Assembly (NCBI GenBank): GCA_928724745.1
Contig: CAKMXJ010000032.1
Coordinates: forward strand, 496,001-560,000
Reading direction: 5' to 3'
From: Anthracocystis setariae
Lineage: Eukaryota; Basidiomycota; Ustilaginomycetes; Ustilaginales; Ustilaginaceae
DNA: 64,000 nt
The translations under genes were made by a program, and so were the position numbers. The first letter of the stretch is position 1, and the number at the start of each line of letters is the position of its first letter. The notes beneath the pieces were generated by a model. It did no database searches. It worked only from the letters and a program-made list of their open reading frames with translations, and was not told the origin of the DNA. Shown here piece by piece: positions 26,239 to 30,027 of the stretch.

Positions 26239-29200
26239 TCACTTGTCCCATGCAACGCGTCCACCGCCAAAGACAAACGGATATGCCGTTTGATAGTAGT
26301 TGACAAACGTGCGTCGGCCAGCGATCCACGGTGCCGTCGCATAGCTGCCGCCAATCACGACGCTGTGTTTGCCATCGAAAAAGTCCGAGCTGTAGCCAGG
26401 ATACATCGTGGACGCTTGGAACCCTTCGTACTCAGCAAACACAGTGCTCGTCCACTCCCATACTCCCCCATTGTGCCCTGGCAACAGCGTTCCATCCGAG
26501 TCATAACGCGGCAGGCAAGCCGGAACGGGATGCCAGTTGCGGAAGCCAACGTTGGCCGACGGCGCCGCCTGACCCTGGGTGGGATTGTGCGAGCTTCTCC
26601 GCCTTCCGCCCGCCGCTGGCGTCGCATCTTCTCCCTCTTTGCTCACAGTGGATCCTGGACCATGCATCGAGATCCCGGGAGGATGGATCTCCGTCTTGAG
26701 CCTTCGTCGAGACTTGTTCTGCGGCTTGGGAGCATTAACGTTCTCCGTAACATAGAAGCGGCGCAGCATCATGATGGCTTCATCACGAAGGTAGCCGCCC
26801 ACCGACTCGTAGCCTGGCGCACTGACGATGCCATCATCGTCATGCAGACCAAGCACGCTGCCGTTGCCTCCGAAGCGCTCGTTGCCGGCGCCAAACACCA
26901 CTCGTCCAATGCCAATCTGCCTCAGCGCAGCTCCGCACATGATGCAAGGCTCAATCGTGACATAGAGTGTGGTATCCTTGAACGGATTATCGCCCTCGGG
27001 ACCCGAGTGAGGATCAATCGCAAAGTTGGGCGCAGAGGGCGGTAGGATCGAAAGGATGTGATCGATCGCCTCGAGCTCGGCATGTCGAGTCGCGTTGAGC
27101 AGCTCGTTGGTTCGATTGCGTCCACGAGCAATCACTTCTCCCTTGCGCACAAACACGCCGCCAACGGGCACTTCGTTAGCATCGAGCGCCTCTTGCGCCA
27201 TAGCGAGCGCCTCACGCATCCAATGCAGATCTTCTTCCGACTGCTCCTCAGGCGGAACATATTTGACAGCAGAACCACGCACGGGCGGGGCTTGCTTGCC
27301 AGGCGGTTCAATCTCGTGGACCTCAGCTGGAGGCGTCCCGGCGTCCTTGTCAAAGGGAGGAACGGTCAGATCAAGCACCAATGCCTCGGGAGGAGCATCC
27401 ATGAGCCTCCGGAGCTCGGCATGTGTAGGAAGACGACCGCCTTTCCAAGCAGCATATGCTGCCAGTTGCTTGCCAGAAGCCTGGACTGGCCAGTGCTGAG
27501 CTACAGGCATGTCCACAGGCCCGTAGAAGCTGCGGACCGAGTGGCCCTCCCCATCGTCATGTTTGACCCACGATGCCGGAATATCGGAGCTGGATGTAGC
27601 TTGGAGGAAATCCAAGTACTCTGCGTTGGTGATGGGAAGCGCAGAGATGGAGAAGGCCCTCGTCTCTGCCCTTCTTCGAGGATGCTCGTTGTCCCAACCG
27701 AACTCGGGCTGACCCATCTGCATGTTGAGATTGTGCACATCGCTCGACGGAGATGCTGCAACGATGTCAAAGTCTTGCGTATCGTCATCATCGTGCCCAA
27801 GCTCCACAGATGCAGCTTCAAAGTGAAAGCGCTGCTCTGAAGCTCGGCGGCCACCGCGCTTCTGATACTCAGCTTGCCATTTTCGCGAGAGCGAGGCCCA
27901 GTCTGGAGCCATGAAGCCCGCTGGTGACCTGGTGTTGGGGGACTGTATGAGCATGTAAAGCAAAGTTTCAAGGTGGAGATTGATATGCTCGAGTGTCATC
28001 CAGAGCATCCTCGCCAGGCGGCGATTCATCATCAGATCGCCACGGGCGACGTCCTCGTAGATCTGTTGCACGCGTAGCTGCACCGTTTGCTGGTATTTGA
28101 GGATCTCATCGAGTGTCGGCCAGTCTTCTTTGCAGGTGGGCACCTCGCTGTGCGGATTGCATTGGGTCGTGTCATCCATATGAGGATCGATACCACGCTC
28201 AAAGATGGCCGAGAACCGATCGTTGGTATGAGGTTGCTTCAGATATGTGGCAACGTGGATGTCGACGAACGCCGGGATATGACCGAGGTAGAACAAGCAG
28301 ATGTGTCGAAGGTCGATCGGCTTTTCGTGCAGCATGTTCTCGGGAATCATGGTCAAGGTGACACAGTTCCAAGCATCCCACACCGTCTTCCAGTCTCGAA
28401 GGCTAGGCAAACCGAGCAGAGCAGCCTTCTGTGCCATCTCGTCAAGATTGCTGCCGCCCCAGCCATCGTCGATCTTCGTGGCAGAGGGCTGCTGGGAAAT
28501 GTCCGACTCCACCTTGGAGCCGATCAACTCAGGATTGATGCCTGAATTGGAGAAGTGGAAGCCAGGCTTCTCGACGAGCCAGATATCGTATCGATCGGAC
28601 TTGTCGCTCCAACGCTGAACAACCCGAAGGCCCGCATAGTCGAAGAGGTTCAGGGTCTCGCGTTCACTGAACTTATAACTGGCCTCCATGTGAATGAGCT
28701 CGCCTTCCTGAACCTGGATGGGCTCAGTTAGCCCAGCCACTCGGATTTCGTGCGCCTCCTTGGCGCGATAGTAAGACTCGTGACGACCTTCTCGGGCGTT
28801 GTACCTGTCAAAGTACTCGAATTTGCGGCGGTCGATGACGTTGCCGCCGAGTGCTCGATCTGCATGATCCAGACCGTTCATGATGAAGTCGCGCGTCAGG
28901 CCTGCAGGATCGTTGTATGCCAAGGCAACATCAGCTGGCTTGTTACGGCGGTCGATGGAGATCAGCATGGTGTCACCCGCACGCATGCTGCCCCGCGCTG
29001 TCTTGGCAAGGAAATCGGCAGCAGCCTTGCGGTCAAAGTTGCCGATGCTAGATCCGAGCCAGAGCAAGCAGCGCTGCCCTTCGACCTGGGCACCAGCCGC
29101 GGTGGAAGCAGCTTTCAGACCACCTTTACCAATAAACTCCAAGCCAGCATCGTACGTGGCCCACAAGCCATTGATCCCTACCTTGCCTCCGTGAATGGTC

Positions 29201-30027
29201 CAAGCGTCTTGGTCGCCGTTGATGGCTTCCTGTGCGTGAAGATCGCGCAAAGTTCGGTCGAGCTCTGCGTTGTCGAGATCGAGCGCATAGTAGTGAACGC
29301 TGGGACCGCCAGTTGAGAGTGTGGGCAAGACTTTGAGTGCACGTAAGAGGTGGATGGTCTTCTTGAGTGAGCCAGCGCCAAGTTCGACGAGCGATCCAGC
29401 TCCAACGGCTCGGTCGCCATCAAGCCCTTCCTCGGCGTTGACACCTCCGTTGAATCTACCCACTTGACTGTCACCCCACTTTTCCTTGCTCGATGCATCG
29501 GCACCTCGTGGAGGTGGCAAAGAATCCTGGTGAGCATGATCCTGATCCAGGCGAGGGGCTCTGTGACGCGCTGCGGTGGCGTCCGATGACTTGCCGGATG
29601 CTGTGGTCGAGTGGCCAAAGATACGTAGAGCAATCTCGGGGCCATAGTCCTTGAGGATCTGTAGCTCGGCATTGTAGAGGTAGTACTCAGGAGCCGCAGT
29701 CAGCTTGTCATATAGGATGAGGCCTTGTTCGTCGTAGAGGATGGTGGTTGGCAGCGTCTTTCTATACGAGTACTTGAGATCCTCCTGGTCCGCCTCCTTG
29801 CCAGGGACAACGAGCTGATCGCATTGCAGCCCTGCAATAATTTCGCGTCGGAGCTGGTCGTGCGTGGAACTACTCGAGAGACTGCCGGCGCTGCCGGAGT
29901 AGAGGTCAATGACGGGAGCAGTGAGAAGCTTGCCAGCTGTCTCGATCTGCGGAGTCTTGACAGTCATCTTGCCGACGTCGGTCAAACCACTATCGGCAGA
30001 AGACGTTGTTACGGCAGAGGGCGCCAT
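26239..30027 (-). CDS. EGT1: Egt1-type ergothioneine synthase with a Tad2 tRNA adenosine deaminase nested in its EgtB domain
   Basis: A single uninterrupted 1262-codon frame. Residues about 65-490 are the EgtD histidine N-methyltransferase (SAM motif LVELGAGSLKKT near 213; LGSSIGNFD near 324), which makes hercynine. Residues about 545-870 begin EgtB: a DinB-like bundle with the iron motif HINLHLE (H681, H685, E687) and then the FGE-sulfatase fold, which stops at GGRLPTHAELRRL (863-875). The fold resumes at NVGFRNWHPVP (1159) and NGGVWEWTSTVF (1186-1197) to the end. Between them, residues about 925-1118 are a complete Tad2-like deaminase (H982-A-E984 and P1027-C-I-M-C1031). In ordinary fungal Egt1 the RLPT and NVGFRNWHP blocks are close together. 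Both catalytic sets look intact. The frame could be one trifunctional protein, or splicing could remove the insert. Confidence 0.9.
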   Translation of the reverse strand: MAPSAVTTSSADSGLTDVGKMTVKTPQIETAGKLLTAPVIDLYSGSAGSLSSSSTHDQLRREIIAGLQCDQLVVPGKEADQEDLKYSYRKTLPTTILYDEQGLILYDKLTAAPEYYLYNAELQILKDYGPEIALRIFGHSTTASGKSSDATAARHRAPRLDQDHAHQDSLPPPRGADASSKEKWGDSQVGRFNGGVNAEEGLDGDRAVGAGSLVELGAGSLKKTIHLLRALKVLPTLSTGGPSVHYYALDLDNAELDRTLRDLHAQEAINGDQDAWTIHGGKVGINGLWATYDAGLEFIGKGGLKAASTAAGAQVEGQRCLLWLGSSIGNFDRKAAADFLAKTARGSMRAGDTMLISIDRRNKPADVALAYNDPAGLTRDFIMNGLDHADRALGGNVIDRRKFEYFDRYNAREGRHESYYRAKEAHEIRVAGLTEPIQVQEGELIHMEASYKFSERETLNLFDYAGLRVVQRWSDKSDRYDIWLVEKPGFHFSNSGINPELIGSKVESDISQQPSATKIDDGWGGSNLDEMAQKAALLGLPSLRDWKTVWDAWNCVTLTMIPENMLHEKPIDLRHICLFYLGHIPAFVDIHVATYLKQPHTNDRFSAIFERGIDPHMDDTTQCNPHSEVPTCKEDWPTLDEILKYQQTVQLRVQQIYEDVARGDLMMNRRLARMLWMTLEHINLHLETLLYMLIQSPNTRSPAGFMAPDWASLSRKWQAEYQKRGGRRASEQRFHFEAASVELGHDDDDTQDFDIVAASPSSDVHNLNMQMGQPEFGWDNEHPRRRAETRAFSISALPITNAEYLDFLQATSSSDIPASWVKHDDGEGHSVRSFYGPVDMPVAQHWPVQASGKQLAAYAAWKGGRLPTHAELRRLMDAPPEALVLDLTVPPFDKDAGTPPAEVHEIEPPGKQAPPVRGSAVKYVPPEEQSEEDLHWMREALAMAQEALDANEVPVGGVFVRKGEVIARGRNRTNELLNATRHAELEAIDHILSILPPSAPNFAIDPHSGPEGDNPFKDTTLYVTIEPCIMCGAALRQIGIGRVVFGAGNERFGGNGSVLGLHDDDGIVSAPGYESVGGYLRDEAIMMLRRFYVTENVNAPKPQNKSRRRLKTEIHPPGISMHGPGSTVSKEGEDATPAAGGRRRSSHNPTQGQAAPSANVGFRNWHPVPACLPRYDSDGTLLPGHNGGVWEWTSTVFAEYEGFQASTMYPGYSSDFFDGKHSVVIGGSYATAPWIAGRRTFVNYYQTAYPFVFGGGRVAWDK
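26676..27255 (-). other. TAD2: nested Tad2/ADAT2-like tRNA adenosine deaminase domain
   Basis: Residues about 925-1118 of the Egt1 frame. The zinc/catalytic motifs HAE (codons at 27079-27084) and PCIMC (26935-26949) are present, as are the Tad2-specific blocks NEVPVGGVFV, LYVTIEPCIMCGAALRQIG, VVFGAGNERFGGNGSVL, GYESVGGYLRDEAIMMLRRFY and APKPQNKSRRRL. These cover the normal Tad2 protein from its first residues (Met 937 lies where yeast Tad2 begins) to near its C-terminus. With Tad3, Tad2 converts A34 to inosine in tRNA anticodons, an essential step in eukaryotes. A free Tad2 elsewhere in the genome cannot be excluded from this window. Confidence 0.88.

Follow-up and report, generated by a model that had tools for sequence, protein, structure and literature searches.

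The window analysed here, a stretch of 64,000 nucleotides from the basidiomycete Anthracocystis setariae (GenBank assembly GCA_928724745.1, contig CAKMXJ010000032.1; C28:496001-560000 in the searched genome of 21.47 Mb and 36 contigs), carries on its minus strand, at 26239..30027, an uninterrupted frame of 1262 codons plus stop that starts with ATG and has no internal stops. Consistently with the initial annotation, which had read from the letters alone a Tad2 tRNA adenosine deaminase nested inside the ergothioneine synthase Egt1, the frame proved to be single, and its anatomy (EgtD, the EgtB iron motif and a split FGE-sulfatase fold with a full Tad2 between its halves) was recovered by Pfam and by matches to chains of solved structures. 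The genome holds this frame in one place only, where 1279 codons are open. Its parts, all on the minus strand, are as follows.

26239..30027 (-): EgtD-EgtB(FGE-N)-Tad2-EgtB(FGE-C) in one open reading frame, 1262 codons + stop
28570..29766 (-): EgtD-like S-adenosylmethionine (SAM)-dependent methyltransferase, residues 88-486, by Pfam, NCBIfam and structure-chain matches; low-complexity insert at ~144-206
27964..28353 (-): EgtB DinB_2-type iron domain, residues 559-688; Pfam 22.9 bits, match to EgtB-IV 8vih over 548-705
27967..27987 (-): HX3HXE iron motif HINLHLE, residues 681-687 (motif named in PMC4020840)
27403..27723 (-): EgtB FGE-sulfatase first half, residues 769-875, ending in RLPTHAELRRL; Pfam and EgtB alignment
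27241..27402 (-): linker 1, residues 876-929, mostly of low model confidence, with in-frame coding bias
26677..27240 (-): complete Tad2 (ADAT2) tRNA adenosine-34 deaminase, residues 930-1117, by Pfam, chain matches and model
27076..27084 (-): HAE, zinc ligand His982 and catalytic Glu984, by motif and alignment
26935..26949 (-): PCIMC, zinc ligands Cys1028 and Cys1031, by motif and alignment
26554..26676 (-): linker 2, residues 1118-1158, with few hydrophobic residues (composition measured over 1121-1158) and low model confidence
26242..26553 (-): EgtB FGE C-terminal half, residues 1159-1262, with GGVWEWTS and GYSSDFFDGKH; EgtB matches

The motifs begin at residues 681 (HINLHLE), 865 (RLPTHAEL), 982 (HAE), 1027 (PCIMC) and 1159 (NVGFRNW), and the catalytic motifs HINLHLE, HAE and PCIMC are all intact, as the initial annotation had held. 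Judged by these sequence matches, chance is excluded as the source of the domain identities.

The Tad2 module and its place in Egt1

Within the cut, Pfam placed MafB19-deam at residues 932-1059 (E-value, E, 3.4e-22) and dCMP_cyt_deam_1 at 931-1046 (E 2.1e-21). Residues 934-1117 aligned with residues 7-185 of yeast TAD2 (7bv5_A, E 2.6e-42) and residues 930-1103 matched human ADAT2 (3dh1_A, E 2e-39), followed by mouse ADAT2 (3e-38) and the trypanosome protein (3e-26), while bacterial TadA chains matched more weakly (6e-21 to 3e-13). The module also has the eukaryotic Tad2 tail (NERFGGNGSVL...YLRDEAIMMLRRFYVTENVNAPKP) together with the unaltered HAE and PCxxC residues H982, E984, C1028 and C1031; by sequence comparison it is closer to eukaryotic Tad2 than to bacterial TadA. 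An AlphaFold2 model of residues 876-1158 (283 residues) was computed from an alignment with 40 TadA rows (A1). In its core (926-1095), 12 of 17 ten-residue blocks had a mean pLDDT (predicted local distance difference test score) of at least 91, with lower values at 996-1015 and 1046-1075, and its top eight PDB matches were human, mouse and yeast ADAT2, at 44-48% identity. The rows of A1 came from a contig scan for relatives in which 264 stretches were confirmed and 80 loci kept, 40 of these 80 being used; the matched query parts of the kept loci all lay within or just around the Tad2 part, and from their sequences the loci are read as bacterial TadA. Since the pattern TIEPCIMC was used in the locus scan, the invariance of this motif in A1 is partly by construction. 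EgtB relatives were searched for in viral contigs and none was confirmed.

The remainder of the frame resembles a fungal Egt1. Methyltransf_33 (PF10017) was found at residues 208-486 (E 4.3e-74), and the methyltransferase part matched the EgtD chain 4pim (E 3.7e-23) and cleared the NCBIfam EasF cut-off (234 vs 205.6). DinB_2 at residues 559-688 scored E 1.3e-4 and 22.9 bits, slightly below the cut-off of 24.8. FGE-sulfatase covered residues 769-872 plus a second stretch (E 3.6e-23), and the C-terminal 104 residues aligned with the end of EgtB and EgtB-IV. By sequence, the features expected of an Egt1 are thus present: an N-terminal EgtD-type methyltransferase, DinB_2 with HX3HXE, both FGE halves, and an Egt2 in the genome. 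A second, smaller insert lies in the methyltransferase domain, where 74 residues separate positions 132 and 207, versus two in EgtD 4pim; it contains a low-complexity stretch of ~63 residues (144-206; window 29410-29598, minus strand).

The insertion had been assigned to a loop position, and two solved EgtBs agree, both having a short loop there. In the alignment with EgtB-IV 8vih, residues 871 and 1163 correspond to 344 and 371 (Asn1159 to ~367 by extrapolation); in that with EgtB 4x8b, residue 874 corresponds to 302 and Asn1159 to 329. The loop at the cut is thus 22-26 residues long in 8vih and 4x8b, versus 284-287 here, with the caveat that sequence similarity of the first FGE half to solved EgtBs is weak (E 0.0024 for the 8vih stretch). 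In the flanks of the deaminase, Pro, Glu, Ser, Lys, Gln, Gly and Ala together make up 61% of residues 876-929 and 68% of residues 1121-1158, with hydrophobic residues at 24% and 5%, a composition to be expected of tethers. Both linkers are probably disordered: they have low pLDDT in the 283-residue model, to which a lack of homologues in these flanks may also contribute. Domain gains and losses occur mostly at chain ends and less often internally (PMC10158824), so that the internal insertion of a whole enzyme would be the less usual event.

Wobble-inosine and ergothioneine genes elsewhere in the genome

Whether the genome holds another Tad2, a point raised by the initial annotation, was addressed with PF00383, PF14437 and the Tad2 piece, and no second copy was found. 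The Tad2-piece search gave one full match, the locus itself, followed by the Tad3 gene at E 0.7. PF00383 occurred in four places; from their sequences, L002 is read as a dCMP deaminase, L003 as a cytidine deaminase and L004 as a deaminase linked to PAP2. A Tad1-type A_deamin gene is a separate locus. L004 (1237-2781, minus strand, contig C11) is itself another unexpected deaminase fusion, a frame of 514 residues joining a PAP2-type phosphatase to an Inv-AAD/PF00383 deaminase.

Likewise, the frame at 26239..30027 was the sole Egt1 match in the genome, with no second Egt1 found. An Egt2 candidate (L153, contig C11:594374-595168) matched solved Egt2 5uts at E 4.7e-79, so that by sequence the ergothioneine pathway looks complete; this candidate lies ~12 kb from the PAP2-deaminase fusion on the same contig. 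Ustilago, Pseudozyma and Moesziomyces species are listed as ergothioneine producers (PMC11993508; PMC10858013).

Candidate substrates of a wobble deaminase are also present. Among 56 tRNA loci (ARAGORN with introns allowed; 62 of 611 tRNA candidates scored, one match on contig C24 left out), 17 genes had adenosine at position 34 (A34): Thr AGT (4), Ala AGC (6), Leu AAG (4), Ser AGA (2) and Arg ACG (1). Within the same 56 loci, no tRNAs with guanosine at this position were found for the Thr, Ala, Leu, Ser and Arg boxes, and no A34 tRNAs were seen for Ile, Val or Pro. With introns disallowed, four of the six Ala AGC loci were unclear, one was called Leu and one was missed. Introns of 7-71 nt were called by ARAGORN in tRNA loci L024, L025, L027-L029, L031-L037 and L118-L143, a heavier load than is known from most fungi, and L136 was called tRNA-Pyl (cta), likely a misreading.

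Tad2 works with Tad3, in which the catalytic Glu is replaced, usually by Val (PMC11087585). A short ADAT3-like query gave a sole candidate at C1:150416-150562 (E 2.3e-5), within a frame of 683 residues (L146:1261-3312, minus strand; contig C1, ~150.3-152.3 kb). This protein begins with a SET domain (residues 44-147; PF00856, E 4.4e-14) that matches SET domain-containing protein 7 (5h6z, E 1.6e-31), which we take to be S. pombe Set7. The Tad3-like part lies C-terminal to SET, has HAV in place of HAE (KHAVIQAI), retains EPCIYC, and matches ADAT3/TAD3 chains of trypanosome (E 7e-7), mouse (4e-5) and yeast (2e-4). With Tad2 within EgtD-EgtB and Tad3 behind SET, each subunit of the wobble-inosine deaminase seems, from sequence, to be joined to a SAM-dependent methyltransferase protein, a parallel that may be coincidence. 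EgtD and SET proteins are not known to act as tRNA methyltransferases. No literature linking Tad3, a SET domain and adenosine deaminase was found.

Possible products of the fused frame

Both Tad subunits are reported to be essential (PMC11087585), which makes it very likely that the fused frame has to give a functional Tad2. The initial annotation had offered three ways in which this could happen, namely one trifunctional protein, splicing out of the insert, or a separate Tad2 started at Met937. The first is the best supported, since there is one frame, no second Tad2 or Egt1 was found, and a long FGE insert has been published for the Ustilago maydis homologue UM00197. The base composition of the segments bears on the same question. 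The two linkers were jointly stop-free in 5.7% of base shuffles, which alone is weak evidence. Linker 1 has an in-frame codon bias of 0.22 bits per codon, with the other five frames negative; linker 2 (-0.03) and the FGE C-terminal piece (0.04) have no clear bias, so that this test is silent there. GC content at third codon positions was 0.644 in the Tad2 segment and 0.643 in EgtD residues 207-486.

It is unlikely, though the best surviving alternative, that the long protein is made and most functional Tad2 is a shorter form, arising from an internal promoter or start or cut out at the linkers. We keep it in view because in Fusarium TAD2 is transcribed and translated from alternative starts, and the long N-terminal extension reduces binding to Tad3 (PMC11087585). 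The linkers are also of low confidence in the model, Met876 and Met937 are in frame, and Met943 has G at both -3 and +4. However, counting all frames and the main start, 48 ATGs precede codon 937, which makes leaky scanning very unlikely. The -3 position is C at Met876 and T at Met937, neither a purine, against A at the main ATG, which also has G at +4; and, with no stop between Tad2 and the EgtB C-terminal piece, any product of an internal start would retain that piece. A separate Tad2 from Met937 is accordingly improbable.

Alternative splicing, with one transcript encoding ordinary Egt1 and another the fused form, is far less probable. Three CAG acceptors, with exon starts at 26718, 26574 and 26568, share the phase of a fair donor (GTGCGT at 27282), and the last two would take out just the Tad2 part; however, no CTRAY branch site was found 5-50 nt ahead of the in-phase acceptors. 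Of 454 control coding stretches, drawn from nine further long frames in the window, 69 held an in-frame pair of equal quality and 16 held one accompanied by a branch site, so that these signals are not unusual for coding DNA and lend the splicing proposal no specific support. The hypothetical intron would measure ~708 nt, against ~60-440 nt for six paired gaps between split Ras-family matches of this genome, which are partly unmatched exon. An assembly or annotation artefact fusing two genes is barely credible, one assembly being the source of the evidence, given that Tad2 sits between two halves of one domain and not beside a gene, the locus lies within a 1.93 Mb contig, both joins are stop-free, and U. 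maydis Egt1 likewise has a long FGE insert.

We consider a real in-frame domain insertion, read mainly as one trifunctional protein of ~1262 residues whose Tad2 pairs in trans with SET-Tad3, to be the likely state of affairs. In such a scenario, a Tad2 coding sequence would once have moved into the loop of variable length in the FGE-type domain of Egt1. It is now the only detectable Tad2 of this fungus, in a gene presumably translated mainly as a single chain. Its EgtD and EgtB parts would convert histidine and cysteine to hercynylcysteine sulfoxide, with a separate Egt2 finishing the pathway, while the Tad2 module, tethered by two probably disordered linkers, would pair with Tad3 to make inosine-34 in tRNAs. 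Because Tad3 here forms the C-terminal portion of a protein with a Set7-like SET domain, deaminase activity would reside in an Egt1[Tad2]:[SET]Tad3 complex. By default we read this as a tolerated fusion that would equalise the amounts and place of two enzymes, a reading that calls for no regulatory link between their pathways.

Several points weigh against this single-protein reading. Its support is the DNA sequence of one genome, and the substrates of the EgtD, EgtB and Tad2 parts are inferred from sequence. The NCBIfam equivalog cut-offs, in models built for bacterial and archaeal annotation, were missed for EgtD (164 <291), EgtB (87 <360), the OvoA N-terminal model (133 <400) and TadA (85 <150). 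The Tad3 match of the SET protein is modest (PF00383 20.1 bits, under the cut-off of 25), and no second Tad2 was found by a search that was exon-wise in a perhaps incomplete assembly, so that an intron-split copy is not strictly excluded. For the EgtB part, a model of 718 residues was unsuccessful (mean pLDDT 54.5, with zero EgtB relatives among 31 rows), and it therefore says nothing on whether both folds form. Moreover, a 112-residue N-terminal extension of Fusarium Tad2 weakens its binding to Tad3 (PMC11087585) and, by analogy, the 929 residues that precede Tad2 here might do so too.

A larger reading, by analogy with trypanosomes, is quite unlikely: on forming, the Tad2/Tad3 heterodimer would build a four-enzyme hub in which inosine-34 editing has its amount, place or activity set by methyl and sulfur status or, through ergothioneine synthesis, by redox stress, or in which a potentially mutagenic deaminase is restrained, as Trm140 is reported to keep the mutagenic activity of trypanosome ADAT2/ADAT3 in check (PMC6382703, a review). 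An essential tRNA editor appears to exist in this fungus only as a module inside an antioxidant-synthesis enzyme. If so, the ergothioneine synthase should be essential on grounds that have nothing to do with ergothioneine, and the phenotype of a whole-gene knockout would be misread. With the SET-Tad3 fusion, the pair lends itself naturally to asking whether methyl or redox metabolism is coupled to wobble decoding.

Ten other long frames of the window belong to ordinary eukaryotic families, including a fungal Zn(2)-Cys(6) domain.

Comparison with known systems

Tad2/ADAT2 proteins of S. cerevisiae (7bv5), human (3dh1) and Fusarium (FgTad2) share with the module the full core, HAE, PCxMC, the eukaryotic tail and a Tad3 partner with Val for Glu. 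They differ in length, the solved chains having 189-253 residues and FgTad2 an alternative extension of 112 residues (PMC11087585), whereas here 929 residues precede the module and 145 follow it. In PMC12754623, the passages on Tad2 architecture make no mention of smuts. In Trypanosoma, a wobble deaminase also acts with a SAM-dependent methyltransferase, ADAT2/ADAT3 with Trm140 (PMC6382703, a review); in contrast to the present case, these are separate proteins in a complex, the methyltransferase modifies tRNA, and the substrate is shared.

On the ergothioneine side, Egt1 of N. crassa (NcEgt-1) and S. pombe (SPBC1604.01) has the same EgtD-type methyltransferase, DinB_2 with HX3HXE and FGE-sulfatase in one chain, with a separate Egt2 (PMC4020840). 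No deaminase is named in that account of these proteins, and here 284-287 residues with Tad2 replace the short FGE loop. No report joining Tad2 with Egt1, or a tRNA deaminase with ergothioneine, was found in the literature searched; tRNA-specific adenosine deaminase and ergothioneine co-occur in one paper, on bacterial editing.

The nearest published parallel is UM00197, which among U. maydis proteins is the closest homologue of S. pombe Egt1 (PMC4020840), and for which Pluskal and co-workers (2014) described methyltransferase and FGE-sulfatase domains with long non-homologous inserts of unknown function (PMC4020840), the only paper found on UM00197/UMAG_00197. Its inserts lie in the same two domains as those of the window protein, and the methyltransferase insert at residues 144-206 is possibly the counterpart of the one reported there; they differ in that the paper assigns them no function, and the word deaminase is absent from its main text. 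Compared by published description, not by sequence, this suggests that the FGE insert of UM00197 is the same Tad2 fusion, unrecognised, in which case the fusion of Tad2 and Egt1 is probably old. As far as our searches go, the parts are each known and their arrangement is new and unreported, and a Tad2 insertion could account for the functionally unexplained insert of a published Egt1.

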